Shown here: in pieces, positions 39,497 to 63,958 of the stretch | Layout of the letters: each line of letters begins with the position of its first letter | Position numbering within the stretch: position 1 is the first letter of the stretch | DNA from: an uncultured Amylibacter sp. | GTDB lineage: Bacteria > Pseudomonadota > Alphaproteobacteria > Rhodobacterales > Rhodobacteraceae | Reading direction: 5' to 3' | DNA: 64,000 nucleotides | NCBI GenBank assembly: GCA_943846615.1 | Contig: OX044354.1 | Location: 2,187,001 to 2,251,000 of the forward strand | Made by a program: the position numbers and the translations under genes | The notes under the pieces: generated by a model | The model's database searches: none | Seen by the model: only the letters and a program-made list of their open reading frames with translations | What the model was told of the DNA's origin: nothing

Positions 39497-39602
39497 TTTT
39501 ATACCTCTTGAACAAAGAGGCGTGTACAGCTAGACATATCAGGCACCGCAAGCACCCAATACGCATCAAACCGCCCACGCTCTCAGAGTGTGGGTTATTT
39601 GT

Positions 39603-46463: not shown

Positions 46464-46489
46464 TTCGGAACTACTTTTCTTTCGTAATC

Positions 46490-46507
46490 GGGTATACTAT
46501 CGTACCA
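46490..46507. promoter_or_regulatory. UxuR/ExuR-type operator between kdgK and kdgF
   Basis: GGGTATACTATCGTACCA: GGTA (46491-46494) faces TACC (46503-46506), and GTATAC is central to the left part. It resembles the TGGTATACCA operator of GntR hexuronate regulators and the site at 54797-54828. Confidence 0.5.
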
Positions 46508-46593
46508 GATATTAGGTGGGGTTCCAATGCATAGCGGCTGTTGCTGATGAATTTGGAACTGCTTTTTGTTGTTAAATAGAAGGGCTCGAACAG

Positions 46594-46905
46594 ATGTCAG
46601 ATTTTCCAATTGTAACGACCGGCGAAAATGTAACGCGCCAAGTTTTGTCAGATCATGCCGACCTGATGATGGTTGCGTTCACGTTTGAAAAGGCTGGGGC
46701 GGAAGGTGCCTTGCATAATCATCCTCATGTTCAATCTACGTTCGTTGAATCTGGGCGTTTCCGTTTTTCAGTGGGCGGTGTTGAAAAAGAAGTTGGGCCC
46801 GGTGATACGTTTGTTATTTCATCAGACGTGGTTCACGGTTGCGTATGTTTGGAACCTGGTCGTTTGGTCGATTGTTTCACCCCGCGTCGGGATGATTTTT
46901 TGTAA
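46594..46905 (+). CDS. kdgF: KdgF-like cupin, unsaturated uronate processing
   Basis: A 103-residue single cupin. Metal ligands are visible as HNHPHVQ (His41, His43, Gln47) and the late His81 in DVVHGCV, with CFTPRRDDFL at the end as in KdgF. KdgF speeds the opening of 4,5-unsaturated monouronates, released by pectate or alginate lyases, to the linear ketouronate. Its place between kdgK and the alginate lyase operon supports this role. Confidence 0.82.
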   Translation: MSDFPIVTTGENVTRQVLSDHADLMMVAFTFEKAGAEGALHNHPHVQSTFVESGRFRFSVGGVEKEVGPGDTFVISSDVVHGCVCLEPGRLVDCFTPRRDDFL

Positions 46906-46949
46906 GATTGATAGCGTTGTTACGACCAAGGACATTCAAAAGTATTGAT

Positions 46950-46984
46950 AAACGGGGCAAGGTAGTTTGCCCCGTTTATTTTAT
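46950..46984. terminator. Bidirectional terminator between kdgF and the DEH reductase-like gene
   Basis: Perfect 11-bp stem AAACGGGGCAA (46950-46960) with TTGCCCCGTTT (46967-46977), then a T-rich plus-strand tail. It separates two convergent genes. Confidence 0.8.
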
Positions 46985-47728
46985 TTAGCTGAACAACATA
47001 CCGCCATTGATGTCCAAGTTTGTACCCGTCATGAACGCGCTGTCGTCGCATGACAAAAACAATGCAAGGTTTGCGATGTCGATTGGTAGGCCTTGGCGTT
47101 TTAAAGGTGATGCGTTTTCAACGAATGTGCGTACCTCTGGTTTTGTGTGGATGTTGTGGAAATCTGTGTCGATCATGCCTGGGCAGATTGCGTTAACACG
47201 GATTTCTGGCCCCAATTCTTTGGCCAAACCCCGCGTCATTGTCATGACTGCGCCTTTTGATGTGCCGTATGGTACGGAACCTGGGCCACCGCCATCACGA
47301 CCAGCTTGGCTGGCAAGGTTTACGATTGCGCCGTTTGTCATGTGGTCAAGGCTGGCTTTGGTCATCATGAACAATGATGTTAGGTTCAAATCCATAACCG
47401 TGTTCCAGTGCGCCAAATCCATTTCACGGATTGTTTTACGTGCCACAAGGCCACCAGTGTTGTTGATCAAGATGTCCAAGCCACCAAAATCAGCAACAGT
47501 TTTGTTGACAAGTGCGTCTACGCCTTCTTGCGTGTTCAAGTCACCTTGAAGAGCGAATGCGTTGCCGCCAGCCGCTTTGATTTCCGCTACCGCTTCGTCA
47601 GCGCCTGTGCTGCTTGAGAAGTAGTTTAGCGCAACGTTTGCGCCTTCTGATGCCAATTTAACGGCGACTGCGCGACCAATGTCACGGCCTGCACCTGTTA
47701 CGATGGCTGTTTTGCCTGCTAGTTTCAT
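46985..47728 (-). CDS. SDR, probable DEH (4-deoxy-5-hexoseulose uronate) reductase
   Basis: A 247-residue SDR: TGAGRDIG cofactor loop, NNTGG, Ser in IVNLASQAG, YGTSK catalytic pair, ending GTNLDINGGMLF. It lies last in the operon, 32 bases after the lyase gene. In alginate users a reductase of this family turns DEH into KDG, which fits the lyase and KdgK here. KduD-type activity is the main alternative. The strand after the glycine loop (ALNYFSSSTGAD) suggests NADPH. Confidence 0.75.
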   Translation of the reverse strand: MKLAGKTAIVTGAGRDIGRAVAVKLASEGANVALNYFSSSTGADEAVAEIKAAGGNAFALQGDLNTQEGVDALVNKTVADFGGLDILINNTGGLVARKTIREMDLAHWNTVMDLNLTSLFMMTKASLDHMTNGAIVNLASQAGRDGGGPGSVPYGTSKGAVMTMTRGLAKELGPEIRVNAICPGMIDTDFHNIHTKPEVRTFVENASPLKRQGLPIDIANLALFLSCDDSAFMTGTNLDINGGMLFS

Positions 47729-47760
47729 TGTATTTTCCTTTTAGTTTTTGTGCGTATGGC

Positions 47761-50085: not shown

Positions 50086-50122
50086 GGGGAACTTTCTGTA
50101 TCGTGGTGTCTGATAATAAAGT

Positions 50123-50146
50123 GGTGCGGCCATATCTGGCCGCACC
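50123..50146 (-). other. Intercistronic stem-loop after the binding-protein gene
   Basis: GGTGCGGCCA pairs perfectly with TGGCCGCACC around a TATC loop, with no T run, between the binding-protein and lyase genes. Such structures often stabilise the abundant binding-protein message. Confidence 0.55.
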
Positions 50147-50175
50147 GCATTGGTTTTCGTTATATTTGTTAACGA

Positions 50176-51717
50176 TTAGCCGCCGTACTGACGATCGTAT
50201 GCAGACTGCATCGCAGTCACAACGTCTGAGAAGCCCATCTTGTTGATTGTGGCGATGTAGTCATCCCACTCTGCTTCGATGTCGCCGTTACCCAAAACCC
50301 AAGCTTGTTGACGCTCAAGCATGTAAGTCTGAATTGAAGACCACTTCTTGTCGTAAACGCCTTGCTCGGCTTCGTTAAATGCAACGCCTAGGAATTGTGG
50401 AACTAGGTAGTCGCCAGCATCGTATAGTTCGATACCTTTAACAGCTGATGGGTTTGTCCACTGGATTTCGTAACCGAAGTCCTGGAAGTAGCCACGTTGA
50501 ACCTGTGAACCAACTTGGTAAAGTTGGCTGTTCACTGGACCAGCATCTTTAAATTCTTGCTTAAAGATAGGCTTACCGTCAACCATGTCGTACTGCTCGC
50601 CTTCGATACCGAAGTTAGCCAAACGACGACCTTCTTCTGTGAAGTAGAAGTCGAAGTACTTGATCGTTGTTACTGGATCAGGGTTCGTATGCGAAATCGC
50701 CCAACCATCTGGTTTCACCGGGATACGACGGTGTTCAGCCATGCGTACGCCTGAGATAGATGCCGGTGGCTTAATCACTGCCATTGAGAAGCCTGGAATC
50801 TTGTCTTTCAGCTTCTTGTTGTAGCCTGAAGTCGATGCAAACCAATCGTGGGTCATGCCGCCCAAGTTTTCTGACAACAAGAATTCACGTGCTGATGAGC
50901 CGCGTGTGAAGACTTCTGCGTCGATCAGACCTTCAGCGTACCATTTAGCAATGTTCTTGATGCCTTCGCGGTAACCTTCACCAGCGTAGCCGTGCTGAAT
51001 TTTGCCGTCTTGAACCAAGAAATCGTGGTATGTATCTGAACCAGATGAACGACCGTCCCACAATGTTACAAGACGTAGCAATTCTGGCCACTGGCGCGCA
51101 AAGTAAGGAACTTCGTCTTTTTTGCCGTTACCGTTTGGATCATCATTACGGAACGCAGTCAAAACGTTGTACAACTCGTCAACATTTTCAGGTGCTTTTA
51201 GACCCAATTTGTCCAACCAGTCCTGACGCATCCAGTACGCGCGACCGTATTTACCGTCTGGTAGATATGGAATGTAATACATGTTGCCGTCAAACGCAGA
51301 CACAGCAGCCATTTTTTCGGGGTACTTGTCAAAGAACGCTTTCAAATTTGGAGCGTGCTCTTCGATTAGATCGTTCAATGGAACGAATGCGCCTTGTGGG
51401 CCATATTCGTTAACCATGTTCTTGATCTTATCACCACCAACGATGTGTGGGATGTCGCCAGAAGCAAGCATCAAGTTGTGCGCTTCTTTTGAAGAAGGTG
51501 TGTTTGTGCCAAATGTAGCACCCTTAAGTGAAACACCAGTCAACTTGCGCGCTGCTTGTTCAACAGGCCAGTTTGAATCGTAGTGATAGCGTTTGTTGTG
51601 CAAGTGCACTGTGAATTCCACGGGCTCATCCGTGATTTTCAAGTGACCGTCTGCAAACGCAGGCACCGTCATTGAAGACGTCAGCAAAGCTGCCGCCATT
51701 AAGGTAAATTTACGCAT
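50176..51717 (-). CDS. AlgQ-like alginate oligosaccharide-binding protein
   Basis: A 513-residue binding protein with signal peptide MRKFTLMAAALLTSSM...FADG, cut near residue 23. It is as long as Sphingomonas AlgQ1/AlgQ2 (over 490 mature) and has the calcium-binding EF-hand-like loop DPNGNGKKDEVPYF. Other family stretches are YIPYLPDGKYGRAYWMRQDW and TNPDPVTTIKYFDFYFTEEG. GGGAGG precedes the ATG at 51717; a longer reading to 51768 is not needed. It delivers oligomers to the M1/M2 permease. Confidence 0.8.
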   Translation of the reverse strand: MRKFTLMAAALLTSSMTVPAFADGHLKITDEPVEFTVHLHNKRYHYDSNWPVEQAARKLTGVSLKGATFGTNTPSSKEAHNLMLASGDIPHIVGGDKIKNMVNEYGPQGAFVPLNDLIEEHAPNLKAFFDKYPEKMAAVSAFDGNMYYIPYLPDGKYGRAYWMRQDWLDKLGLKAPENVDELYNVLTAFRNDDPNGNGKKDEVPYFARQWPELLRLVTLWDGRSSGSDTYHDFLVQDGKIQHGYAGEGYREGIKNIAKWYAEGLIDAEVFTRGSSAREFLLSENLGGMTHDWFASTSGYNKKLKDKIPGFSMAVIKPPASISGVRMAEHRRIPVKPDGWAISHTNPDPVTTIKYFDFYFTEEGRRLANFGIEGEQYDMVDGKPIFKQEFKDAGPVNSQLYQVGSQVQRGYFQDFGYEIQWTNPSAVKGIELYDAGDYLVPQFLGVAFNEAEQGVYDKKWSSIQTYMLERQQAWVLGNGDIEAEWDDYIATINKMGFSDVVTAMQSAYDRQYGG

Positions 51718-51770
51718 ATAGTTTCCTCCCATTATGCTGTTAAATTCAAGGTTTCCGTTAGACTTCATTA

Positions 51771-52652
51771 TTATTCTTTTACTCCACCCATCATAATACC
51801 TTTGTTAAAGTACTTCTGAATGAACGGGTAGAAAATCAATACTGGAATGATCGAACAAACCATAATTGAAGACGTTACGGTTTCAAAAGAATAAGTTGCA
51901 TCAATAAGTGATTGCCCAAATTCTTCGTCATCTTGTAGTTCTGCGATAACTTGGCGCAGATAAACCTGTAGTGGAATTTTACCTTCATCCTTAAGCAATA
52001 CCATTGCCCAGAAGAAGCCGTTCCAACGTGCAACCATACAGAACAGTGTGATTGTTACGATCGCAGGTTTTGATAATGGTACAAATACCTTCCAAAGAAC
52101 TTGGAATTCATTTGCACCGTCCATACGTGCGGCTTCTTCGAATGACGACGGGATCGCCTCGAAGAAGTTACGTAGTAGGATGATGTTAAAGGCGTTACAG
52201 GCAAACGCGATGATCAGGCCAAAGTAGCTGTCCATCAGGCCCAAGTCACGCATGTTCAAGAAGAACGGGATCAGGCCCGCATTGAACCACATTGTAAACG
52301 CAACCATCAGGTTCCAGAAACGACGGCCAACAAGTTGGCGACGTGAAAGTGCATATGCACCTGGAATGATGATGATCAAACTGACAATTGTGCCGCCAAT
52401 CGTATAGATGAACGTGTTTACATATGACGACCAAAACAGCGGTTCTGACAAAACGCGTTCATAAGCGCCGATGGTGAAGCCAAGAGGGCGCCAAACGACG
52501 TTACCCGCCGCTGCTTCACTACCATTACTAAACGATACGGCAGTGATATAAATAAACGGATAAAGAGTTGAAATCGTAAATAACGCGATCAACACCATAT
52601 TGATCCGAACGAAGAACTTGTCGCCACGCGAGTAAAGATTCATATTTGTCAT
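51771..52652 (-). CDS. Alginate-type ABC importer, permease M2 (CarB/LplC type)
   Basis: A 293-residue CUT1 permease with six membrane segments and the EAA loop FEEAARMDGANEFQVLWKVF, then PLSKPAIVTITLF. It resembles the AlgM2/LplC subfamily that pairs with long binding proteins lacking a lipoprotein partner. It lies between binding-protein and M1 genes. Confidence 0.82.
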   Translation of the reverse strand: MTNMNLYSRGDKFFVRINMVLIALFTISTLYPFIYITAVSFSNGSEAAAGNVVWRPLGFTIGAYERVLSEPLFWSSYVNTFIYTIGGTIVSLIIIIPGAYALSRRQLVGRRFWNLMVAFTMWFNAGLIPFFLNMRDLGLMDSYFGLIIAFACNAFNIILLRNFFEAIPSSFEEAARMDGANEFQVLWKVFVPLSKPAIVTITLFCMVARWNGFFWAMVLLKDEGKIPLQVYLRQVIAELQDDEEFGQSLIDATYSFETVTSSIMVCSIIPVLIFYPFIQKYFNKGIMMGGVKE

Positions 52653-52663
52653 TGATCAGTTCC

Positions 52664-53590
52664 TTACCACAACGATGTACGCGAGTAGCGCTTTGAAATT
52701 GTATTGGCGGTCATCACGAGTACGAAAGCAACAGTCGCGTTAAACAAACCAGCAGCAGCGGCCAGATCATATTGCGCCCCTTGCAAACCTTGGCGATAGA
52801 TCAAGGTGTTGATAACATCACCTGTAGAATAGGTAGATGGTTGATAAAGTAGGATAATCAACTCAAAGCCGACCTCCAATAAGTTACCGATCCGAATGAT
52901 CAACATGATAATGATCGTTGGTAGGATCGCAGGTAATGTAATCTTCCACATCATCTGCCAGCGCGACGCGCCGTCAACAACCGCTGATTCATACAGTGAT
53001 GGGCTGACGCCGGCGATTGCCGCAAGGAATACGATGGAGGAGAAACCAGCCTCTTGCCAGATACCAGAACCAATGAAGATCGGCCTGAACCATTCAGGTT
53101 TAATCAAGAAGTAGATGGATTCGAAACCTAACCATTCAAGGAACGTGTTTACGATACCAGCTGAAGGCGAGAACGCCGTAATCACGATACCAGCGATAAT
53201 CACGGTGGAAATAAAGTGAGGTAAGTAAACGATTGTTTGTGCGGTTTTCTTAAAGACTTGGTTCGTGATCTCGTTAAACATCAAGGCCAAGATGATCGGC
53301 ATTGGGAAGCCAAAGCAAAGGCTTAGCATACTGATCATGAATGTGTTTTTTACCGCGCGAAGGAATTGGTCGCTGCCAAATAGGGTGTGGAAGTGTTCGA
53401 AGCCAACCCAAGGGCTGTTGGCAACGCCGCGAAAGATTGAGTAGTCTTTAAAAGCGATTTGTAGACCGTACATAGGTTTGTACAAGAATACGATGAACCA
53501 AATGATTGTCGGGGCAAGCATGACATAGATCTGCCACTCATTTCTGAGGTGCTCCTTAAGCCATGACATGCGATTTTGCATATTTTCCAT
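52664..53590 (-). CDS. Alginate-type ABC importer, permease M1 (LplB type)
   Basis: A 308-residue CUT1 permease with six membrane segments; the EAA loop is SLYESAVVDGASRWQMMWKI followed by TLPAILPTIIIML. AlgM1/LplB-like start (MLAPTIIWFIVFLYKPMYGL). The gene lies 11 bases upstream of the M2 gene. Confidence 0.82.
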   Translation of the reverse strand: MENMQNRMSWLKEHLRNEWQIYVMLAPTIIWFIVFLYKPMYGLQIAFKDYSIFRGVANSPWVGFEHFHTLFGSDQFLRAVKNTFMISMLSLCFGFPMPIILALMFNEITNQVFKKTAQTIVYLPHFISTVIIAGIVITAFSPSAGIVNTFLEWLGFESIYFLIKPEWFRPIFIGSGIWQEAGFSSIVFLAAIAGVSPSLYESAVVDGASRWQMMWKITLPAILPTIIIMLIIRIGNLLEVGFELIILLYQPSTYSTGDVINTLIYRQGLQGAQYDLAAAAGLFNATVAFVLVMTANTISKRYSRTSLW

Positions 53591-53602
53591 GTGTCCCTCT
53601 CC

Positions 53603-54709
53603 TTACGAATTCGTTGAAGTCGGGTGACCCATTGCAAGACCAGTTTCCTTGTCAAAAACTTTGATAAGGTCGGTGTTGATGGAAACGGTGGAAATATCTT
53701 CTAGGTGATCAATCGAGCCGTTCGTTTCTGCCTTAACCACGAATGGTGTGTTCGCGACCATTGCGTGAAGCAATGCTTCTGAGCCAAGAGTTTCAACCAA
53801 ATCAAGTTCAACAGGTAGATTGTTAAGCCCCTTAACTTTGCCAAGTTCGAAGTGCTCTGGGCGCAGGCCAACAACAACTGTCTTACCTTCGGCGCCTTCA
53901 AGTTCTTTTAACTTAGGAAGTTTGATTTTAGCACCGTCGATTTCGACGAAGTATCCAGTAGATGATTTTTGTACTTCTGCATCGATTTGGTTCATTGGCG
54001 GAGAGCCGATAAAGCCAGCAACGAATGTGTTTACTGGATTGTTGAACAATTCCATCGGCGTACCGATCTGCTCAATGCGGCCATCTTGCATAACAACGAT
54101 ACGATCGGCCAATGTCATCGCTTCGACTTGGTCGTGTGTCACGTAAATGCTGGTTACGCCTAAACGTTTGTGCAGGCGTTTGATTTCGGCGCGCATTTGA
54201 GTGCGCAATTTGGCGTCAAGATTTGATAGTGGTTCGTCGAACAAGAATACTTTGGGGTGGCGCACAATCGCGCGACCCATGGCAACACGTTGACGTTGAC
54301 CACCTGACAAATCCGCAGGGCGGCGTTCAAGATACTCTGTAAGGCCAAGAATTTCGGCAACTTCTTCCACAGACGCTTCGATGTTCGCCTTCTTCTCTTT
54401 GCGGATGCGTAAGCCGAAAGCGATGTTTTCATAAACGTTCAAGTGTGGGTAAAGGGCGTAGTTTTGGAAAACCATCGCAACATCGCGATCTTTGGGCGCG
54501 ATAGTGTTACACACACGACCGTCGATGGTAATTTCGCCACCAGTGATCTCTTCTAGACCAGCAACCATGCGTAATGTTGTCGATTTTGCACAGCCCGAAG
54601 GGCCAACCAAAACAACGAATTCTTTTTCCTCTACGACGAGATCGATTCCATGTACGACTTGCGTATTGCCATACTTTTTCACGATTTTCTTGAGTTCTAC
54701 ACCAGCCAA
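53603..54709 (-). CDS. Alginate-type ABC importer, ATPase (AlgS/UgpC/MsmK family)
   Basis: A 368-residue ATPase. Walker A GPSGCAKSTT has Ala where most relatives have GSGKST/GCGKST; signature LSGGQRQRVAMGRAI; Walker B VFLFDEPLSNLD; switch His in YVTHDQVEAM. The C-terminal 130 residues are the OB-type regulatory part (VVGLRPEHFELG). First gene of the operon leading to the lyase. Confidence 0.88.
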   Translation of the reverse strand: MAGVELKKIVKKYGNTQVVHGIDLVVEEKEFVVLVGPSGCAKSTTLRMVAGLEEITGGEITIDGRVCNTIAPKDRDVAMVFQNYALYPHLNVYENIAFGLRIRKEKKANIEASVEEVAEILGLTEYLERRPADLSGGQRQRVAMGRAIVRHPKVFLFDEPLSNLDAKLRTQMRAEIKRLHKRLGVTSIYVTHDQVEAMTLADRIVVMQDGRIEQIGTPMELFNNPVNTFVAGFIGSPPMNQIDAEVQKSSTGYFVEIDGAKIKLPKLKELEGAEGKTVVVGLRPEHFELGKVKGLNNLPVELDLVETLGSEALLHAMVANTPFVVKAETNGSIDHLEDISTVSINTDLIKVFDKETGLAMGHPTSTNS

Positions 54710-55055
54710 ATTCCCGTTCCTTCTCTATTCGGCGGAAATCGATCTCATACTGGGATGCCAGTACCTCCCGAATCGATTTTGCCCCTCGGTTCCATCTGGT
54801 ATACTAGTAAATGAACTAGTATGCTAGTCTTGAAGTTTACGAAAAAATTGTTTTACTGTGTGTTATGGGAATGCGTGTAATGGGAATGCAATTTATACAT
54901 GTTTCCGATACCTGGTTTCCCCCAAAAGCATCAAGTATGTGTTCGGGGGAAACGCACAAAAAACGTTTTGGCACCTTCGCGTGCGATGATGTTGCCTTAT
55001 GCGCTGGTTTTCTGGGTGTCGAATGTGTAAGTAGCGGCGAGGAAGGGTTGTTTTT
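54710..55055. other. Divergent control region of the alginate locus
   Basis: About 346 bases. Besides the operator at 54797-54828 it has two copies of ATGGGAATGC (about 54865-54890) of unknown meaning. Short frames here have no support. Confidence 0.5.
54797..54828. promoter_or_regulatory. Double palindromic operator before the alginate operon
   Basis: ATACTAGT (54801-54808) and ACTAGTAT (54815-54822) are perfect inverted arms around six bases. Within it lie two 10-base sites, TGGTATACTA (54798-54807) and TAGTATGCTA (54818-54827), like the TGGTATACCA site of UxuR/ExuR regulators. It lies 92 bases before the ATPase start and 230 before the GntR gene. Confidence 0.6.
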
Positions 55056-55739
55056 ATGGTAAATGTGACACAAGCAAACGGGCGCAGCACAAGTGTTGAT
55101 GTTGTTTTTGATCACTTGTACGAAGCAATTGTTTCTTTGGAATTGTTACCTGGTGCGAAAATTTCCGAAGCGGAGATAGCCTCGCAATTCGGTGTTTCAC
55201 GCCAACCGGTTCGTGATGCATTCAGCCGCCTTGCGAATTTAAATTTATTGCTGATTCGCCCTCAACGTGCCACCGAAGTTAGACGATTTTCATCAAAAGA
55301 AATCGAAAAATCGCGTTTCGTTCGTGCCGCCGTCGAAGCAGAAGTGTTGCGACGCGCCGCCAAAGAATACACCGATGATGACGCACCTGTTTTGGAAGCA
55401 TGCCTTGAAAAACAGAGAAAAGCCTTGGGCGCGCGTGACTATGAACGTTTTGGTGAGTTGGATTACGAATTCCACAGAACATTGTGCGAAATTGCCAATG
55501 TGGATTTTGCATTCGACGTGATTGCAACTGAAAAAGCGAATGTTGACCGATTGTGTATGTTGGGCCTTTCAAAAGAGGACCGGATTGAAGAATTGGTCGG
55601 GGATCACGTTGAAATTGTAAAAATGATCCAATCGCGCGACAGTGAAGGTGCTGTTGCCGTTGGCATGAAACATCTCGGCCGTTTGGATGCAACAATCGAG
55701 GGTATTTCGGAACTTAATCCAGGTTATTTTGAAGCATAG
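55056..55739 (+). CDS. GntR-family (FCD) transcriptional regulator, probable uronate repressor
   Basis: A 227-residue regulator. The N-terminal winged helix has EAEIASQFGVSRQPVRDAF and a LLLIRPQRATEV wing. The C-terminal FCD domain has metal-type residues in ELDYEFHRTLCEIAN, DHVEIVKMIQ and KHLGRLDATI. FCD proteins of the UxuR/ExuR branch sense uronates or KDG-like acids. Divergent from the alginate operon, whose control region holds TGGTATAC-type palindromes; I infer that it represses the locus until a breakdown product binds. Confidence 0.82.
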   Translation: MVNVTQANGRSTSVDVVFDHLYEAIVSLELLPGAKISEAEIASQFGVSRQPVRDAFSRLANLNLLLIRPQRATEVRRFSSKEIEKSRFVRAAVEAEVLRRAAKEYTDDDAPVLEACLEKQRKALGARDYERFGELDYEFHRTLCEIANVDFAFDVIATEKANVDRLCMLGLSKEDRIEELVGDHVEIVKMIQSRDSEGAVAVGMKHLGRLDATIEGISELNPGYFEA

Positions 55740-55873: not shown

Positions 55874-56560
55874 TTGAATATGCATATTAAAATTACGCCG
55901 GATAGAATTCGCATTTTTGCATTGTTGCTGATGATCCCTTTTGCGGTTGGCGCTGTTGCGGTCTTGGCGAAGCCATCGTTTCAAGAAGTGCTGGCACATG
56001 GACCAATCCAAGCGGGGCACGAAAATGTGCAGTGTACGGACTGTCATCGACGTGATGACGCCACATTGCGCCAGCAAATTCAGGCGAATTTACATTATGC
56101 ACTGGGAAACCGCGAAAATAGCGTTGATTTTGGGTATCTTCCCGTCACCTCCAGCGATTGCTTGGATTGCCATGAACGTCCAAATGAACGTCACCCAATT
56201 TACCGCTTTCGTGAGCCGCGATTTGCGGAGGCAGTCGAGGTTGTTAACGCCACGTCTTGTATGGGGTGTCATACAGAACACACAGATCAGCGGAGCTTTT
56301 CCGATGTGCGGGTCTGTGCTGCATGTCATGGTGAGTTAAATTTGGTGAACGACCCGGTAGATGTTTCCCACGAAACATTGGTGCGTGAGAAACAATGGCA
56401 AACCTGTCTAGGGTGTCATGATTTTCATGGCAATCATACCTACAAAGCACCAAAATTGATGGTAGAGGCGGTACCCGTTCAAGATATCGAAGATTACTTG
56501 GCGGCAGGCGACAGTCCTTATGGCACCGAAAAAATATATAAAGCGGAGACAAGTCGATGA
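55874..56560 (+). CDS. Pentaheme c-type cytochrome, membrane-anchored or periplasmic
   Basis: A 228-residue protein (start 55874 or the internal ATG 6 bases on). Residues 13-32 are one hydrophobic segment, a signal or anchor. Five CxxCH heme sites follow: CTDCH (54-58), CLDCH (96-100), CMGCH (129-133), CAACH (148-152) and CLGCH (178-182), with extra histidines (HTEHTD, HDFHGNH) that can act as second ligands. The spacing fits the cytochrome c3/NapC-NrfB superfamily but no exact family. ATGA overlap with the next gene. It should carry electrons in the periplasm. Confidence 0.78.
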   Translation: MNMHIKITPDRIRIFALLLMIPFAVGAVAVLAKPSFQEVLAHGPIQAGHENVQCTDCHRRDDATLRQQIQANLHYALGNRENSVDFGYLPVTSSDCLDCHERPNERHPIYRFREPRFAEAVEVVNATSCMGCHTEHTDQRSFSDVRVCAACHGELNLVNDPVDVSHETLVREKQWQTCLGCHDFHGNHTYKAPKLMVEAVPVQDIEDYLAAGDSPYGTEKIYKAETSR

Positions 56561-57408
56561 TTTTTCGTATCGTATTAACAGGTTTTTTTGCGTGCACAGG
56601 AATTTACCTATTTGCCAGCGCGCCCGAACCTCTGCCCGATAAAGCGGCGTTGTTTAATGACAGCAGGTCAATTCATGTTGGTAATATGTTTAATGCGGTG
56701 AATGCAGTTAATCATGCCGCGCGCGCTATTTATACCGAACGTATTGTTGGCGTTGGAATGAAACGAGGTCTGAAATTTGGCGAGGACTGGGCCGAGCCAG
56801 ACGTTGAGAAAGGGCCATTACCCGCGTTATTTTTACGATTAGTTGCTGGACGTATGGAAGGGAAGCCATCGCGATTGGGACTTTACTTGGGGTCAGATGA
56901 GCCCATCAACAAATCTAACTTGTTTGATACGGCCCAGGCAGTTTCGTTTGAGGAGATGAAGGCCACCAAAAGTGCGGTGATTATGCCAGTTGAAACTGTG
57001 GGTTATGTAGGCATGTATCCGGATGTTGCATCGGCCGCGCCATGTGTGACATGCCACAATGATCATCCCGATAGTCCGAAAAAAGATTGGGAATTGAATG
57101 ATATTATGGGTGCGACGACATGGACGTATCCAACTGAAAAACTGGGTGCGGATGCGTATCTAAGTACGACCGAAGAGTTGTTCCAGTCCGTTGAAGAGGC
57201 ATATGGGATGTATATTGATAAGGTTGCGGTTTTTAATCCTGATATCGAAATTGGGAGTGTATGGCCCGATGCGCAAAAGCTGGCGTTACCGGATCGCCAA
57301 ACATTTATGGCTGCGGTGCGTCAACGGGCATCCATGACGGTTGTTGAAGAATTGGTTCTGATCAATCCTTTGGATCCTAGCGAAAAAGCCAAGGAAATAT
57401 TCAAATGA
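56557..57408 (+). CDS. Tll0287-like c-type heme protein
   Basis: A 283-residue exported protein with an N-terminal hydrophobic segment. One heme site CVTCHNDHPDSPKKDWE (Cys163, Cys166, His167) lies in the arrangement of Tll0287-like/DUF3365 heme domains, followed by NDIMGATTWTYP. Such domains often form redox sensors or short electron wires. It overlaps both neighbours by 4 bases, so the three products are probably made in fixed ratio. Confidence 0.75.
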   Translation: MIFRIVLTGFFACTGIYLFASAPEPLPDKAALFNDSRSIHVGNMFNAVNAVNHAARAIYTERIVGVGMKRGLKFGEDWAEPDVEKGPLPALFLRLVAGRMEGKPSRLGLYLGSDEPINKSNLFDTAQAVSFEEMKATKSAVIMPVETVGYVGMYPDVASAAPCVTCHNDHPDSPKKDWELNDIMGATTWTYPTEKLGADAYLSTTEELFQSVEEAYGMYIDKVAVFNPDIEIGSVWPDAQKLALPDRQTFMAAVRQRASMTVVEELVLINPLDPSEKAKEIFK

Positions 57409-57890
57409 GTGCGATCGCAGAGCGTTTCCGTAAGAACCCTTATGTCGGTTGGGGATTGCTGGCCCTGTGTCTGGCGGTTGCCGCTATCGTTTCAAATGTT
57501 CAGTTTCTAATACTGCCAGCGCCGCGCAATTTTGTTTGGTTGGTTGTGACCGGTATTTCGTTACTGTCGGCGTTGGGTTTCCAATGGTATTTATTACGCA
57601 AACGTTGGCTGAAAACGATGACGCGATTTGATTTAGTTATGCACCGTTGGACTGGCGTGCTGGCGACCTTTTTCTTCGCGCTTCATGCCGCGCGGGTTGG
57701 GCATTCGTGGATGATCGTTTTGACAATTGTGTTCGTGCTGACCGCATTGACGGGATTGATGAACAAAGAAGTTATGAAATATCCGCAGCGTTGGATGTAT
57801 CTGTTGTGGCTTGGTTTACATGTCAGCTTGTCCACGATCATGGTGCCGATGATTGCGGTGCATGTTTGGGTTGCTTTGGCGTACCAATAG
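57405..57890 (+). CDS. Four-helix membrane protein, predicted di-heme cytochrome b
   Basis: A 161-residue protein with about four membrane helices (15-35, 42-63, 75-115 with a turn, 130-158). His80 and His94 on one helix and His139 and His153 on another are each 14 residues apart, the same spacing as the heme ligands of cytochrome b in the bc1 complex. I infer two stacked b hemes across the membrane. His100 is extra. No family name comes to mind; ferric-reductase-like or cytochrome b561-like folds are the nearest. It would pass electrons between quinol and the periplasmic hemes of its neighbours. Confidence 0.6.
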   Translation: MSAIAERFRKNPYVGWGLLALCLAVAAIVSNVQFLILPAPRNFVWLVVTGISLLSALGFQWYLLRKRWLKTMTRFDLVMHRWTGVLATFFFALHAARVGHSWMIVLTIVFVLTALTGLMNKEVMKYPQRWMYLLWLGLHVSLSTIMVPMIAVHVWVALAYQ

Positions 57891-57896
57891 GTGGTT

Positions 57897-58034
57897 TTAG
57901 TCGTCCAGCAAAATACGCGCGGCGTTGCCTTGGTCATCGTCGTATTGATCAGAGCGCACTGTCCATAGAAAGGCGGCCAATCCCACGCCACCCAAAATGA
58001 GGGACACTGGGATCAAAATTACCAAAATATTCAT
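57897..58034 (-). CDS. ccoS: cbb3 oxidase assembly protein CcoS
   Basis: A 45-residue single-helix protein starting MNILVILIPVSLILGG, followed by FLWTVRSDQYDDDQGNAARI, the CcoS pattern. CcoS is needed to insert heme and copper into the cbb3 oxidase. Its start overlaps the ccoI stop by one base; the open frame upstream belongs to shadow sequence. Confidence 0.85.
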   Translation of the reverse strand: MNILVILIPVSLILGGVGLAAFLWTVRSDQYDDDQGNAARILLDD

Positions 58035-60148
58035 TACAAATACCTCATGCGTTGAGAGTTTAGTATAACTGTAATCGACGACAATGACATGGCCAATGCC
58101 GCCGCCAATGGTGTCGCAAAACCGGCAAGCGCGAAGGGTACCGCGATACAATTATACAGAGCGGCAATTGCAAAGTTCTGCTTCGAGAGTGTTCTCGCGG
58201 CTTTGGCAACATGAAGCACGGTTGGTAGATCGGCGAAGCTGTCTTTCAGTAATACAATGTCGGCCGCATTTCGCGATGCTTCTAATGCTGTTGACGGGGC
58301 GATAGAGGCGTGTGCGACAGCCAGTGCGGCCGTGTCGTTCAACCCATCACCAACCATAAGCGTGTGCTGACCTGCTTGTTTCAGAGCAGTTAGATGTTCA
58401 ATTTTGTCAGTAGATGTCGCTTTTGCGATTACTTTTAGACCTAAGGTGTCCGCAACCCTTTGTGCAGGCTCTTTGGCGTCGCCAGTCAAAATTTCACTGT
58501 GGATTTCGAAATTCCGCAGGGCATCAACAACACCTTCGCGGATGGTTTCGTTGAAATGTATCCGTTTTGCGGGGCGTCTGCCTATTCGCAACCCCAGTCC
58601 ATCGAACTGCCCGTTTAGCCAAGCACCTTGACCAAGGCGCACGGGCTGTCCGTTCCAGAAAGCTTTTACCCCTTTGCCAGGAATTTCTTCAATCTCAGAA
58701 AGAGGTGCGGCAGTTTCAGTTTGTAAACGATTGCTGACCGCGCGTGACAGAGGATGATGGGATGCTTGGGCCAGGGTGAGTGCGATTGATTTTTCGTCGG
58801 CTGAGAAACCTGAAAAACTCGGTAAAGATGCCTGTGTCAGGGTGCCCGTTTTATCGAACACGATATTGTCGATTTCGGCCATCCGTTCCAATGCCGTGGC
58901 ATGTTTTACCAAGAATCCCAGCGAAAATAGGCGGCTGATTGCGGCAGTGGTAACGGCAGGAACAGCCAAACCCAATGCGCATGGGCAGGTGATGATTAAA
59001 ACTGCGATTGCGATATTTAGGGAAAGACGAAAGTCGCCTGTCGCAAGAAACCATCCCAAGAAAGCAAACAAGGCCAGTAGGTGAACCGCAGGTGCGTAAA
59101 TTTGTGCGGCGCGATCAGCCAGAGTTGTGTATTGATTACGCCCGTTTTCTGCGAGATCTACCAATGCGGCCATTCTGCGAAGGCTGGTGTTTTCACCGAC
59201 CGAGGTTGCGCTCAATTCGAAGGGTGCACCGACGTTGATTTCGCCTGCACTTACGGTGTCATTTACGTTGATAGCGCTGGCGGAGCTCTCGCCTGTAAGG
59301 ATTGATCGATCCAAAAATGCAGATTCCGACAATAAAATACCATCGACGGGGACACCTGCACCTGTTGGCACCATGATTTGATCGCCAACTTTTACGGATG
59401 TGGCTTGAATGGTTTCAAGTTTACCGTTTTTTATGCGCTGTGTCGTGTGCACTTCTAGGGCGGTTAATTCCTTGGCGGCGGATCGTGCGGCGCTACGCGT
59501 TTGGTGGTCTAAATAGCGCCCAATCAGCAAAAAGAAAGTTAGCGAAAGGGCTGCATCGAAATATGCGTGGTCTCCACCGTTTAGAGATTCATACAATGAC
59601 ATAATTGCGGCCAGAAGGATCGCCAGCGAAATTGGCACGTCCATATTCAGGCGCCGAACACGTAATGCTGACCATGCGTTTTGAAAAAATGGTTGACCAG
59701 AATAGGTGATGACAGGCAGGCTGATACAGGCGGAAATTAGGTGGAACAAATCGCGAGTTGCATCGGTTGCACCCGACCAGACGGCGACAGATAACAGCAT
59801 TACATTCATCATGGCAAAACCCGCCACAGCCATGCGTGTTAACAATGCGCGGCCCGTTGCATCGGGTTTGTTGCCCTGATCCGATTGGTTGAGGTAGTAG
59901 GCCTCGAAACCCAAATCCTTCAACGCGGCAAGAACACGATCGGGATCAACTGTGCCTTCGACGATTAAGCGTTTCAGCGAAAGGTTTACACGGGCGAAGT
60001 TCACACCCTTTAGCGTATTTAATTCACGTTCAATTTTGCCAATACATGCGGCGCAATGAATTGTGGGTAACGAGAATTGCAAGCCTGCACCTGTAGAAAC
60101 TTGTTGGGCCATTGGCGCGACGGCGCATGCAGGGCAGGCGGCGGTCAT
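58034..60148 (-). CDS. ccoI: Copper-exporting P1B ATPase of cbb3 assembly
   Basis: A 704-residue P1B ATPase. It has an N-terminal CPAC (5-8), one HMA domain with HCAACIGKIE (31-40), membrane helix motif TCPCALGLAVP, phosphorylation site DKTGTLT, SHHPLSRA, and GDGLNDTAAL. CcoI/FixI moves copper to the periplasmic side for assembly of the cbb3 oxidase. It overlaps ccoH by 4 bases and ccoS by one. Confidence 0.92.
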   Translation of the reverse strand: MTAACPACAVAPMAQQVSTGAGLQFSLPTIHCAACIGKIERELNTLKGVNFARVNLSLKRLIVEGTVDPDRVLAALKDLGFEAYYLNQSDQGNKPDATGRALLTRMAVAGFAMMNVMLLSVAVWSGATDATRDLFHLISACISLPVITYSGQPFFQNAWSALRVRRLNMDVPISLAILLAAIMSLYESLNGGDHAYFDAALSLTFFLLIGRYLDHQTRSAARSAAKELTALEVHTTQRIKNGKLETIQATSVKVGDQIMVPTGAGVPVDGILLSESAFLDRSILTGESSASAINVNDTVSAGEINVGAPFELSATSVGENTSLRRMAALVDLAENGRNQYTTLADRAAQIYAPAVHLLALFAFLGWFLATGDFRLSLNIAIAVLIITCPCALGLAVPAVTTAAISRLFSLGFLVKHATALERMAEIDNIVFDKTGTLTQASLPSFSGFSADEKSIALTLAQASHHPLSRAVSNRLQTETAAPLSEIEEIPGKGVKAFWNGQPVRLGQGAWLNGQFDGLGLRIGRRPAKRIHFNETIREGVVDALRNFEIHSEILTGDAKEPAQRVADTLGLKVIAKATSTDKIEHLTALKQAGQHTLMVGDGLNDTAALAVAHASIAPSTALEASRNAADIVLLKDSFADLPTVLHVAKAARTLSKQNFAIAALYNCIAVPFALAGFATPLAAALAMSLSSITVILNSQRMRYL

Positions 60149-60594
60149 TGGATTGTCTCTACGATTATGCGTTGCTGGAACTTTGTTCCGTCAATTGATT
60201 GCGCCTTTAGCCGAAGGTTCCAGTTTCCTGCACCACCCGCGACCTGTGCACGCAAGGCTCGGCCATCAAATGAAAAGTCGGGGAATTGATCTTGGGAAAC
60301 ATTGGTCGCCCGACCAAAGATGGCGGCGTCAATTTTGGGGGATATTGGTTTGCCGTTTTCCAAAATCTGCAACACCAAATCATCTCCCGCGAGGGTCGCT
60401 GAAACATCCCATCCTAAGGCCAGTTGAGCCGTGCGGTCGCGATCAAACCCTTGGCTGGCAACATAAGAATTTTTCACCTCTAACCCAGGAAATGTACGCA
60501 CCGCGTTGAACGCAAGTGTTAGGTTCACGGCGATAATAATACCGAATGCCACGAAAAATGTGGCAAAGACGTGCCATCCTTTTATCTCGGTCAT
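60145..60594 (-). CDS. ccoH: cbb3 assembly protein CcoH (FixH)
   Basis: A 149-residue protein with one N-terminal membrane helix (GWHVFATFFVAFGIIIAVNL) and a periplasmic beta-rich part (NSYVASQGFDRDRTAQLALG, LRLKAQSIDGTKFQQRII). This is the FixH pattern. It overlaps ccoG and ccoI by 4 bases each. Confidence 0.88.
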   Translation of the reverse strand: MTEIKGWHVFATFFVAFGIIIAVNLTLAFNAVRTFPGLEVKNSYVASQGFDRDRTAQLALGWDVSATLAGDDLVLQILENGKPISPKIDAAIFGRATNVSQDQFPDFSFDGRALRAQVAGGAGNWNLRLKAQSIDGTKFQQRIIVETIQ

Positions 60595-62000
60595 TGTGTA
60601 ACCTTTCCGTTGAATGTTGTGGCGCGGCTGGCGCGGGCGCCTGTATTGCGATCTTCTACCCAGATACGCAGGTCTGTTGCGTCAATGCTGGCGGCGGGGT
60701 CTGTTGAACGGGCGCTGACATAGACGCGGTGCAACACGGTGGTGTCTGCGGGTACGACGATGTCTAAGGTGCGAACTTCTTCTTGAAGGTCTATGCGTAG
60801 CAATGCCTTGCTGGTCAGACTCATGTGGAATTTGCGATTATCGCCAGATTTGTTGCGAAGACGCACATCGTAGACATTGCGGATCGCACCGTCTGATTGC
60901 ACGATATATGTTGGATTACGCACTGGGCTGACGGTCAGGTCGATATCCGAGCGGATAAACAGCGCATAAAGTAATCCAATGCCAATAGCAGACCACATGG
61001 CCGTGTAAAGAATAGTGCGCGGACGCAGGATGTGTTTCCAAACTGCTTTAGGTTTTGCACCTGCGCGTTCAGCGGGCTCATCCGACAGGGCGAGGTAGTC
61101 AATCAAACCCCGCGGCTTGCCAATTTTTGCCATGATATCATCACAGGCATCGATACACAGCGCACAGGTGATACATTCCATTTGTTGTCCATCACGAATG
61201 TCGATGCCGACAGGACAAACGTTCACACAGGCCATACAGTCAATACAATCGCCCGTTCCTTCAATGCGTTGTTTGCCACGGGGTTCCCCGCGCCATTCGC
61301 GATACGCCACAGTAATCGTATCCGAGTCCATCATCGCGGCCTGAATGCGCGGCCATGGGCACATGTAAATGCAGACCTGTTCGCGCATAAAACCACCGAA
61401 AACAAATGTCGTTAAGGTCAAAACTGCGATTGTTCCGTATGCAACAGGATGAGCCGTGAAATTCACCAGATCGTGCAACAGTTGTGGCGCATCAGTGAAA
61501 TAAAACACCCATGCCCCACCCGTTGCCAACGCGATCAATAGCCAAACAAACCATTTGGTAAAACGAAGACGCCATTTACGAACATCCCATTTGCCGCGAT
61601 GCAATCGGATACGCGCGTTTCGATCACCCTCAATCCAACGTTCGACCAGAATAAATAAATCCGTCCATACGGTTTGAGGGCATGTATAGCCACACCACAC
61701 CCGACCGAGGGCAGAAGTGAATAAGAATAGGCCAAGGCCTGCCATGATCAAAAGCCCCGCAACGAAGTAAAATTCGTGTGGCCATATTTCGATCCACAAG
61801 AAGTAAAAACGGCGTTGCGCCAAATCAATCAACACGGCCTGATCAGGCAGGTTTGGTCCGCGATCCCAACGCATCCAAGGGGTTAGATAATAAATTCCAA
61901 GGGTGAACAGCATGATCCACCATTTTAGGTTTCGATAAAATCCCGAAACCCGTTTGGGAAAAATTGGCTCACGTGGAGCATAAAGAGATGGTGTGGTCAT
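60591..62000 (-). CDS. ccoG: cbb3 assembly/copper protein CcoG (RdxA/FixG)
   Basis: A 469-residue membrane protein with five or six helices. WCGYTCPQTVW is conserved in the family. Two 4Fe-4S sites lie in CIDCMACVNVCPVGIDIR and MECITCALCIDACDDIM. The C-terminal 110 residues are an Ig-like periplasmic domain. CcoG reduces Cu(II) to Cu(I) for oxidase assembly, as recalled. First gene of ccoGHIS, behind an FNR-type box. Confidence 0.93.
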   Translation of the reverse strand: MTTPSLYAPREPIFPKRVSGFYRNLKWWIMLFTLGIYYLTPWMRWDRGPNLPDQAVLIDLAQRRFYFLWIEIWPHEFYFVAGLLIMAGLGLFLFTSALGRVWCGYTCPQTVWTDLFILVERWIEGDRNARIRLHRGKWDVRKWRLRFTKWFVWLLIALATGGAWVFYFTDAPQLLHDLVNFTAHPVAYGTIAVLTLTTFVFGGFMREQVCIYMCPWPRIQAAMMDSDTITVAYREWRGEPRGKQRIEGTGDCIDCMACVNVCPVGIDIRDGQQMECITCALCIDACDDIMAKIGKPRGLIDYLALSDEPAERAGAKPKAVWKHILRPRTILYTAMWSAIGIGLLYALFIRSDIDLTVSPVRNPTYIVQSDGAIRNVYDVRLRNKSGDNRKFHMSLTSKALLRIDLQEEVRTLDIVVPADTTVLHRVYVSARSTDPAASIDATDLRIWVEDRNTGARASRATTFNGKVTQ

Positions 62001-62051
62001 GATAAATTCCTGTTCGCATAATCTGTTTAATCAGATTCGCCGTTGGGCTCT

Positions 62052-62065
62052 TTGATCTAGGTCAA
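62052..62065. promoter_or_regulatory. FNR-type box upstream of ccoG
   Basis: TTGAT (62052-62056), CTAG, GTCAA (62061-62065): the FnrL/FixK site pattern TTGAT-N4-ATCAA with one change. It lies 52 bases before the ccoG start. Low oxygen would switch on ccoGHIS. Confidence 0.75.
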
Positions 62066-62068
62066 AGA

Positions 62069-62102
62069 CCCGAAGCAGAGTTTGCGAACAGGCTGCTTCG
62101 GG
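62069..62102 (-). other. Stem-loop between ccoP and ccoG
   Basis: CCCGAAGCAG pairs perfectly with CTGCTTCGGG (10 bp, 14-base loop), directly beside the FNR box. There is no T run, so termination after ccoP may be partial, allowing read-through into ccoG. Confidence 0.5.
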
Positions 62103-62143
62103 ATGTTGTTGGGCGCGAAAGGGGGGGAATGCGCCCAAACGAA

Positions 62144-63007
62144 CTACTCGCCTCCACCCAAGGCATGAACATAGAGTGATACGGCACGGACATCTTCGTC
62201 CGATAAGCGTTGCCCCCATGCGGGCATAACGCCGTAACGCGCCTGCTTGACGGTTGTGGTCAGGGTTTCTCGATCACCACCATACAGCCAGATTGCATCC
62301 GCCAGATTTGGCGCACCTTGTTCACGATCACCTTTGGCATCGTCGCCGTGACATGACGCACAATTATCTGCGTAAACTGTTTCGCCCTGACGGGCGAGAT
62401 CCGAGTTAAATTCGGTGTTGGACAGGCTGATTACATATTCAACGACCGCGGTGATATCATCGTTTTCCAAAATGTCTTTGAAGGCAGGCATTTGTGAAAA
62501 ATGGGCGTCTTCGTCCGTTTCATTGCGAATACCGTGGGCAACTGTGGTTGAAATTTCATCGATTGAACCACCCCACAACCAGTTGTCATCCAATAGGTTT
62601 GGATACCCTTTACTGCCGGCAGCACCAGAGCCGTGACATTGGCTACACTGAGCGCGGAAGACAGAGCCGCCGCGGGCAATGCCGTAACGGTGCAAGTCGC
62701 TGGTGGCAGGTAATTCAGATAGATCAGCCGCAATCAATTGCGCGACCAAACCTTGATTTTTTTGCTCGTGTTCGACGATTTGTTCGGCAACTTCGGCGCG
62801 TGTGGAATATCCCAACAAACCTGTTGTTGCACCCGACAGCATTGGCCATGCGGGGTAGGCGATTGAATACCCAACGCCCCAAACGATACAGCCGTACAAG
62901 GTCCATAGCCACCAACGCGGTAAGGGATTGTTCAACTCTTCGATACCGTCCCAACTGTGGCCCGTTGTTTCGACGCCTGTTGGTTCATCAATTTTATCTT
63001 TTTTCAT
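62144..63007 (-). CDS. ccoP: cbb3 oxidase subunit III, diheme cytochrome c
   Basis: A 287-residue protein starting MKKDKIDEPTGVETTGHSWD at 63007. One or two N-terminal helices (WWLWTLYGCIVWGVGYSIAY) are followed by two heme domains with CSQCHGSGAAG and CASCHGDDAKG and distal methionines (FSQMPAF, VMPAWGQRL). It passes electrons to CcoO/CcoN. The start overlaps the ccoQ end by 14 bases. Confidence 0.93.
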   Translation of the reverse strand: MKKDKIDEPTGVETTGHSWDGIEELNNPLPRWWLWTLYGCIVWGVGYSIAYPAWPMLSGATTGLLGYSTRAEVAEQIVEHEQKNQGLVAQLIAADLSELPATSDLHRYGIARGGSVFRAQCSQCHGSGAAGSKGYPNLLDDNWLWGGSIDEISTTVAHGIRNETDEDAHFSQMPAFKDILENDDITAVVEYVISLSNTEFNSDLARQGETVYADNCASCHGDDAKGDREQGAPNLADAIWLYGGDRETLTTTVKQARYGVMPAWGQRLSDEDVRAVSLYVHALGGGE

Positions 63008-63221
63008 CTGAAGCGCCTTCCAGTTTGTCTGTGCATTTGCAGTCCGGACATTTGCTTGAACAGCCCACGGTTTCATTCCGAAATGGGATCATGCTGGCGT
63101 CTTTGCGTGCTTTTGCTTGGCTGGGTAGAAATGCCCAGATGCCTGCGCCTACAAAGAATGCGAACATTGCCAACAGAACCCAACTGTCTGCAAATTCACG
63201 AAGTAGAGAATAGGTTTCCAT
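62994..63221 (-). CDS. ccoQ: cbb3 oxidase subunit CcoQ with a cysteine-rich tail
   Basis: A 75-residue protein starting METYSLLREFADSWVLLAMF with one helix, then the family DASMIPFRNE. It continues into CSSKCPDCKC, giving Cys54, Cys58, Cys61 and Cys63 (C-x3-C-x2-C-x-C). I do not know this tail from other CcoQ proteins. CcoQ stabilises the oxidase. The tail overlaps the ccoP start in another frame. Confidence 0.88.
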   Translation of the reverse strand: METYSLLREFADSWVLLAMFAFFVGAGIWAFLPSQAKARKDASMIPFRNETVGCSSKCPDCKCTDKLEGASDEKR

Positions 63222-63232
63222 GTGTTTGCCTC

Positions 63233-63958
63233 CTATCGGCTGGCGTCTGGTGTGAAGGTTGAGAAATCGACCATGGTGCCCATGACCTGAAGGTATGCCA
63301 CCAAAGCATCCATTTCCGTCAGGGCCTTTTGGCCATCAAAGTTCGCAACGGCGGCACCTGGGTAGCGTTCCAACATGCCATCGTAATCCGCCTCTGGGTC
63401 CGCTTGGACATAGAAGTCATCTGATGCCATTTGAATTTGTTCATCTGTGTAGGGTACACCTACGAAACGATGCGTTTTTAATAATGCTTCGATGTGTTCT
63501 GGTTCAATTTTAGCATCCATTAGGAATGAATATTTAGGCATGATGCTCTCGGGAACGACGGATTGTGGATCGATCAAGTGATCCACATGCCACGCATCAG
63601 AGTAGCGTTGGCCGACGCGGGCCAAATCTGGCCCAGTACGTTTCGATCCCCATTGGAAGGGGTGGTCATACATACTCTCTGCTGCCAATGAATAATGACC
63701 GTAGCGTTCGACCTCGTCACGCATTGGACGGATCATTTGGCTGTGACAGGTGTAACAACCCTCACGGACATAAATATCGCGACCAGTTAGTTCCAACGGA
63801 CTGTAGGGGCGGACACCTTCGACTTCTTCGATGGTGTTTTCCAGCCAAAACAGCGGTGCGATTTCCACCAAGCCGCCAACGGATACCACCAGCAAAGAAA
63901 AGGTCAGAAGCAGTGTTGGACTTTTCTCTATGATGGCGTGTTTATCAAGTATTGCCAT
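63233..63958 (-). CDS. ccoO: cbb3 oxidase subunit II, monoheme cytochrome c
   Basis: A 241-residue protein with an N-terminal helix ([20 protein letters not shown]), heme site [12 protein letters not shown] (Cys68, Cys71, His72), and the distal methionine region [11 protein letters not shown]. It lies between the end of ccoN and ccoQ. Confidence 0.94.

Follow-up and report, generated by a model that had tools for sequence, protein, structure and literature searches.

Membrane cytochromes b of the MsrQ/ferric-reductase/NOX kind (Pfam family PF01794; Fre or FNR as electron donor) have six membrane helices and carry two pairs of histidines on two of them. The DUF4405 proteins, which are heme b cytochromes of the MsrQ/PepSY kind, and FezC are small, hold heme b in the membrane, and have their histidines near the center; DUF4405 proteins have six helices and flavinylated partners (PMC11334425). 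Here, we analyse a three-gene module in the genome of an uncultured Amylibacter sp. (Rhodobacteraceae), located in a stretch of 64,000 nucleotides (contig OX044354.1, positions 2,187,001–2,251,000; hereafter, the window, within which gene coordinates are counted). The module encodes a pentaheme c-type cytochrome, a stand-alone Tll0287-like protein with one heme c (DUF3365, sCache_heme; hereafter, the Cache protein), and a 161-residue membrane protein predicted to hold two b hemes (hereafter, the b protein). We propose, giving the idea close to an even chance, that the module is a so far undescribed, flavoprotein-fed transmembrane heme relay that runs outward and takes part in the handling of nitric oxide (NO) and nitrite. 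The conserved gene set, the histidines, the flavoprotein fusions, the kinship of the b protein, and the genomic association with NO genes were all established by computation.

The b protein resembles the MsrQ/ferric-reductase/NOX cytochromes in its two His pairs on two membrane helices, in profile kinship, and, in part of its family, in a cytosolic flavoprotein donor that is fused or co-encoded. It differs from them in having five predicted helices and a Pfam score under the cut-off, in the N-terminal position of the fused flavoprotein (loci L041 and L046), and in its partners, which are multiheme and Cache heme c proteins rather than MsrP or oxygen. The DUF4405 likeness is limited in the same way, in that the b protein stays under the cut-off of that family as well.

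Among sCache_heme proteins, a stand-alone, Cys-ligated member behaves as a redox protein, and the P. azotoformans protein, which lacks the axial Cys, binds NO (PMC12889525). The module's Cache protein exceeds the Pfam cut-off and has both the CxxCH motif and the Tll0287 fold; it is stand-alone like the redox type and lacks an axial-type Cys like the NO-binding type. It differs from both in its fixed gene partners, a feature that the available part of PMC12889525 does not describe. Single DUF3365 proteins are named in PMC9230427 and PMC7726332, the available parts of which contain no comparable module. In Bradyrhizobium, NarK, a globin, a flavoprotein, and NasC form a unit for nitrate assimilation and NO detoxification, the latter because NasC makes NO; the flavoprotein of this operon serves NasC and the globin (PMC4724949). 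Bacteroidota loci of the module share with this narK-bjgb-flp-nasC unit the NarK, an ABC nitrate transporter, a single-domain globin, and an FAD/NAD(P)H flavoprotein, and differ from it by adding the b cytochrome, the pentaheme protein, and the Cache heme protein, none of which is mentioned in the available part of PMC4724949.

A conserved three-gene module

The three genes lie on the + strand and are linked by two 4-base ATGA overlaps. The pentaheme gene occupies 55880..56560 when read from the likelier ATG start (the open reading frame [ORF] call, 55874–56560, opens at TTG 55874), the Cache gene 56557..57408, and the b gene 57405..57890. Their products contain five, one, and no CxxCH motifs, respectively, and in the b protein His80/His94 and His139/His153 are each spaced by 14 residues on two helices. 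The overlaps, the motif counts, and the histidine pairs had been described in a first-pass annotation of the DNA and were confirmed by the ORFs and the predicted model.

When genomes of 84,980 species were scanned with a profile from the pentaheme alignment, 232 relatives emerged, 80 of which were analysed as loci; together with a Flammeovirga plasmid record and the window, these make up the 82 loci considered below (of the 37 from outside Bacteroidota, 9 fall below 20 kb). The arrangement is not a coincidence: the pentaheme, Cache, and b genes occur together in 81 of the 82 loci, and in the remaining one (L026) the contig ends just past the pentaheme gene. This agrees with the earlier suggestion of a conserved three-gene electron path from membrane to periplasm. 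Moreover, the four histidines singled out in the b protein are present in all 81 b proteins, and no named complex with this make-up of pentaheme cytochrome, Cache protein, and mini b cytochrome was found in searches of an open-access library (which does not cover subscription papers). Pairwise distances among the three proteins correlate with each other (r = 0.96–0.97).

The loci span five phyla or classes; judged from record titles, the module is present in Rhodobacteraceae, Granulosicoccaceae, Methylococcales, Ectothiorhodospiraceae, other Gammaproteobacteria, many Flavobacteriia, one Sulfurovum, and one Anaerolineae. In a first sample, the b protein was detected in 2 of 198 Rhodobacteraceae genomes, one of which is the window's own; a class-level sample of 385 genomes had the pentaheme protein in 2 (E-value ≤ 1e-20). 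Each of the eight module genomes that were searched has one b gene. In a tree of the concatenated proteins, the Rhodobacteraceae/Granulosicoccaceae type is set apart from the remaining loci. Locus L078, from a metagenome-assembled genome of Candidatus Arcticimaribacter (Flavobacteriia), has the proteobacterial gene order and groups with the Rhodobacteraceae/Granulosicoccaceae type (with a support of 1.0), which suggests horizontal transfer or mis-binning. The search for relatives of the b protein returned one plasmid, that of Flammeovirga, and none among viral contigs.

The small membrane cytochrome b

All 81 b proteins share H80, H94, H139, and H153, and likewise G50 and Q60. The predicted structure of the b protein (AlphaFold2, mean pLDDT 89.4) has five membrane helices, with H80/H94 on the helix of residues 74–94 and H139/H153 on that of residues 129–159. 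Along the N-terminus and the successive loops, the mean number of Lys and Arg residues is 2.0, 0.3, 4.6, 0.3, and 2.0, a pattern that fits an N-terminus inside and a C-terminus outside. From the same charge pattern, H80/H139 would face the cytoplasm and H94/H153 the periplasm. The first-pass annotation considered 161 residues unusually small for a b subunit, a length that is ordinary within this family.

In profile comparisons, the b family (80 sequences) matched the Ferric_reduct domain with an hhalign probability of 75.9 (E-value = 2.3e-5) in a single comparison against 21 alphaproteobacterial sequences (21 of 22 were usable, one being only 113 residues long). The probability was 1.2 against bc1 cytochrome b (27 sequences), a narrow set (Neff 2.6) that limits sensitivity, and 0.1–0.8 in reversed and shuffled controls. 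In the 21 Ferric_reduct sequences, the column facing H94 is His throughout, that facing H139 in 16, and that facing H153 in 18. All Pfam matches of the b protein are below the cut-off (score/cut-off of 21.3/26.7 for DUF4405 [PF14358], 20.6/28 for Ferric_reduct [PF01794], and 17.4/30.5 for DUF420), and four other family members yielded one sub-threshold PF01794 match (17.8) and three blanks. A single-sequence search of the PDB with the b protein found no matches. With the family profile, the only PDB matches at E-value ≤ 1 were three distinct FAD-binding FR-type sequences, 8qq7, 8qt6, and 8qta (weak, E-values of 0.28–0.32), which are probably SpNOX.

Fold comparison did not discriminate. The model scored Z = 10.1 with cytochrome b6 and 9.0 with bc1 cytochrome b, but talin bundles reached 12.4, and the search left b6, bc1, superoxide oxidase, NOX5, and mere helical bundles undivided (structure alignments exclude L003); we draw no evidence from this tie. 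The two His pairs of the b protein follow the His-X12/14-His pattern and sit on two helices with 20 residues or more between them; the protein is without the C-terminal FAD/NADPH dehydrogenase domain of a true NADPH oxidase. The first-pass annotation had read the 14-residue spacing as a mark of bc1 cytochrome b. The spacing is not specific to bc1, because a screen for NOX proteins also used His-X12/14-His (PMC5676040), and the profile probabilities lend no support to kinship with bc1 (1.2 for the narrow bc1 set versus 75.9 for the ferric-reductase domain). As judged computationally from sequence profiles, the b protein is akin to the membrane domains of ferric reductases, MsrQ, and NOX, not to bc1 cytochrome b.

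The periplasmic partners

The pentaheme protein begins with a membrane anchor or signal. Five CxxCH motifs are present in 81 of 82 homologs, and four in the other. Beyond the motifs, all 82 homologs share H49, H107, H136, H166, and H185, and 81 share H188, which brings the conserved histidines to 11 in total. All five hemes may be bis-His ligated, because six further conserved histidines suffice for this. The protein exceeds the cut-offs of four multiheme Pfam families, Paired_CXXCH_1 (PF09699, 32.6 bits; cut-off 20.6), Cytochrome_C7 (PF14522, 30.8; 24.8), Cytochrom_CIII (PF02085, 30.5; 22.9), and Cytochrom_c3_2 (PF14537, 30.2; 25). Against the NrfB pentaheme cytochrome model TIGR03146, it scored 24.8 bits, far under the NCBIfam equivalog cut-off of 166.6. 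In the PDB, its profile found eight-heme nitrite reductases and one cytochrome c3, with matches that were weak and partial (best E-value = 0.002). Single-sequence PDB searches with the pentaheme and Cache proteins returned only weak matches (E-value of 0.12 or worse).

The Cache protein matches PF11845 with 34.7 bits (cut-off 24.1), and its CxxCH is kept in 81 of 81 sequences. Its profile had no matches in the PDB. The predicted structure (pLDDT 91.4) matches Tll0287 (5b82) with Z = 10.7 and a root-mean-square deviation of 3.6 over 139 aligned residues, and the next match has Z = 6.5. The protein starts with a hydrophobic segment, and a lipobox-like cysteine column is common to 43 of 81 relatives. 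From aligned position 28 onward, 67 of the 81 sequences have no Cys beyond the CxxCH motif; in the other 14, two more occur around aligned positions 37 and 276–280, on or outside the borders of the heme domain. Hence, no axial-type cysteine was found in the heme domain across the 81 aligned sequences. M153 and H170 are invariant.

The electron donor

A gene for an FAD/NAD(P)H flavoprotein sits between the b and pentaheme genes in all 44 regular Bacteroidota loci; in L033, its product has the Pfam domains FAD_binding_6, NAD_binding_1, and Fer2. In two further lineages, the b protein itself begins with a flavoprotein domain as an N-terminal fusion. In L046 (Anaerolineae), the domain was identified with Pfam; in L041 (Sulfurovum), where the fusion is cut by the contig start, the domain is 27 per cent identical to that of L046 and matches NAD_binding_1 with 23 bits (cut-off 22). 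An N-terminal fusion fits the N-in topology of the b protein. NAD(P)H is therefore well supported as the donor outside Proteobacteria. For the window's module, a NAD(P)H donor can only be inferred: the genome contains three weak matches to the L033 flavoprotein, located elsewhere.

Association with nitric oxide genes

The gene names used for the Bacteroidota clusters were checked with Pfam/NCBIfam on L033 and partly on L057, and the other loci were counted by BLAST cluster or phmmer. Within the fetched stretches, the 44 regular Bacteroidota loci carry a globin (43 loci), a CRP-type regulator (41), an NrtA-like protein (39), and an NrtB-like protein (35), and the NarK-like cluster of L033 recurs in 12 of them. 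In L033, the NarK family match reaches 299 bits (cut-off 311.7), NtrB and NtrCD are the best matches of two kinds that stay sub-threshold, and the best match of the globin is the flavohemoprotein model. Beside L057 lies a gene whose product joins a molybdopterin oxidoreductase to a NirB-like half, with Fdh-alpha, NasC, and NirB as best matches, all under the cut-off. The Bacteroidota-type globin is absent from the fetched stretches of non-Bacteroidota loci.

There, the immediate neighbor of the module is an H-NOX gene in 6 of 37 loci, which represent five genus-level groups: L005 and L007 (Amylibacter), L024, L027 (Harenicola), L022 (Granulosicoccaceae, which also carries an HNOBA-GGDEF-EAL gene), and L046 (Anaerolineae). 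Four of these genes were Pfam-scanned singly, L027 was among three HNOB matches, and L005 was recognized by a profile built from the others. Random placement would give a rough expectation of 0.04 such loci (4000 genes assumed). A hybrid histidine kinase follows H-NOX in L005, L024, and L027, and, by cluster, in L007.

At the level of whole genomes, we compared 24 module-bearing Rhodobacteraceae with 147 others (a sample of 149 minus the module-bearing G000 and G099), and also by genus-level group, drawn up from record titles and scored as positive if any member is. High-scoring H-NOX proteins (E-value ≤ 2e-28, with the line between high and low class drawn after the scores had been seen) occur in 21 of 24 module-bearing genomes versus 15 of 147 others (P-value = 2e-14), and in 11 of 14 groups (Fisher P-value = 6e-8). 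NirB over its cut-off occurs in 22 of 24 versus 59 of 147 (P-value = 3e-6), and in 13 of 14 groups (P-value = 1e-4). Across lineages, NirB was counted in 46 module genomes and H-NOX in 42 (the window's own included) rather than in all 82, and they are present in 36 of 46 and 30 of 42, respectively. H-NOX is encoded in four of four Granulosicoccaceae, three of five Bacteroidota, and the Anaerolineae genome. Outside Rhodobacteraceae, the link to NO genes is uneven. The window's genome has two H-NOX genes (G000:C1 2516640-2517119 and 2582010-2582495), one of them high-scoring.

Proposed relay and alternative readings

In the relay that we propose, the small ferric-reductase/MsrQ/NOX-type cytochrome b would accept electrons on the cytoplasmic side, and the electrons would cross the membrane via two stacked b hemes to the membrane-anchored pentaheme cytochrome c and the periplasmic heme-bearing Cache protein. 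The donor in Bacteroidota, Anaerolineae, and Sulfurovum would be the co-encoded or fused FAD/NAD(P)H flavoprotein. For the window's module, it would be a flavoprotein from another place in the genome, in the manner proposed for Fre and MsrQ, or perhaps quinol. The relay may serve to handle NO that arises in connection with nitrate/nitrite assimilation or reaches the cell from its surroundings, be it by removing NO, by sensing it, or by repairing the damage it does, with the Cache heme, lacking an axial Cys, as the likeliest place of NO binding and the pentaheme protein as the likeliest electron store. The direction of electron flow, the occupancy of the hemes, and NO as substrate or signal are inferences.

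Several observations count against this proposal, the first of which concern the proteins and their donor. The column facing H80 holds His in just 10 of the 21 Ferric_reduct sequences and Arg in 11. M153 or H170 could be the sixth ligand of the Cache heme, and the stand-alone sCache_heme proteins tested so far resemble redox proteins, not NO binders (PMC12889525). No flavoprotein adjoins the module in the fetched proteobacterial stretches, even with a profile that includes the fusions (E-value ≤ 1e-3). By analogy with Bradyrhizobium, the Bacteroidota flavoprotein might serve the globin (PMC4724949), an option that is weakened because fusions of the flavoprotein to the b protein exist.

The missing proteobacterial flavoprotein favors a path from quinol to the periplasm, as the first-pass annotation had envisaged, in which electrons that the b protein takes from quinol would go to the pentaheme and Cache hemes and either supply the cbb3 oxidase or circumvent it. 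Such a path also draws on the likeness of the diheme four-helix core to b6 and bc1, though talin bundles fit the model better, and on the genes next door in the window, where 57897–63958 holds genes for the assembly and the subunits of a cbb3 oxidase (ccoS/I/H/G and ccoP/ccoO, all assigned by eye), convergent with the module. We nevertheless regard this path as unlikely: profile kinship with bc1 is lacking (against the narrow bc1 set), other lineages have the flavoprotein as operon partner or fusion, and cbb3 is not among the 25 commonest families of the 133 neighbor proteins from 31 other loci, a survey of low resolution. Quinol as donor is possible in Proteobacteria, and the survey gave the cbb3 link no support beyond the window.

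The remaining counterpoints to the flavoprotein-fed relay concern NO. The two H-NOX genes of the window's genome are ~270 and ~340 kb distant from the module. H-NOX of any class (E-value ≤ 1e-6) shows no clear enrichment (21 of 24 versus 106 of 147, P-value = 0.13), and the split into classes is post hoc. The NO-related NnrS is not enriched either (12 of 25 versus 24 of 42). NirB over the cut-off is missing in 10 of 46 module genomes and H-NOX in 12 of 42; in particular, H-NOX was found in none of six gammaproteobacterial module genomes outside Granulosicoccaceae and not in the Sulfurovum genome. An FNR/NnrR-type box (TTG-N8-CAA) is not enriched upstream (4 of 80 loci versus a shuffle mean of 5.1; the stretch before the globin gene was used in Bacteroidota).

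The module might be a periplasmic reductase of a metal, oxygen, an oxidized protein, or another acceptor that has nothing to do with NO, with NO genes nearby through a shared low-oxygen or nitrate lifestyle. The acceptors served by its relatives MsrQ and NOX are MsrP, oxygen, or iron, alternative periplasmic acceptors have been proposed for bacterial NOX (PMC5676040), and the lack of enrichment of NnrS and any-class H-NOX points the same way. However, H-NOX adjoins the module in distant lineages, a globin belongs to the Bacteroidota cluster, and no metal-uptake family is among the 25 commonest families of the 133 neighbor proteins scanned, so we consider this reading improbable. Even less credence is due to a sensing relay, in which the Cache heme and the pentaheme protein would signal NO or the redox state of the periplasm while the b protein maintains the sensor hemes in reduced form: NO does bind to an sCache_heme protein that is linked to signaling parts (PMC12889525), and H-NOX and then a hybrid histidine kinase stand beside the module in four loci (three by Pfam, L007 by cluster), but Pfam found no signaling output domain on any of the three proteins, five extra hemes are too many for a sensor, and the H-NOX/kinase pair is presumably a complete sensor already.

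Other features of the window and of related loci

In several Rhodobacteraceae (L004–L031), the module seemingly lies beside the ribosomal L13/S9 genes (5 + 3 family matches among the 133 neighbors), a possible recurrent place of its insertion. Shimia neighbors (c20/c50) that had been guessed from their length to be H-NOX are, by family counts, probably ribosomal L13/S9 and were rejected.

Upstream of the module in the window, 45501–55739 appears to be a polysaccharide or uronate uptake locus, with genes for a sugar kinase, a heparinase II/III-like protein, a solute-binding protein, two permeases, an ATPase, and a GntR/FCD regulator (the regulator was scanned with Pfam and the remainder assigned by eye). 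A single-module NRPS-like protein of 935 residues is encoded at 42591–45398, with AMP-binding, carrier, and reductase regions recognized by eye. At 37896–41533, a tyrosine-recombinase-like integrase gene is close to a replication-like ORF (by eye), possibly as part of a small integrated element.

Implications

The module ties a membrane cytochrome of the NOX/MsrQ type to constant heme c partners, a finding of relevance to the acceptors of these bacterial cytochromes. For one subfamily of stand-alone heme-Cache proteins, it points to a likely source of electrons. A more specific version of the flavoprotein-fed relay is possible, though doubtful: a new NO-removing system in which NAD(P)H would feed the NOX-like mini-cytochrome b and, through it, a periplasmic pentaheme/Cache pair that reduces NO or its product, under H-NOX control in some species. 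If true, this system would be a periplasmic counterpart of flavohemoglobin, built from NOX-type and sensor-type parts. If the link to NO holds, marine Rhodobacteraceae and Flavobacteriia would possess a hitherto undescribed system for handling NO that is linked to nitrate assimilation.

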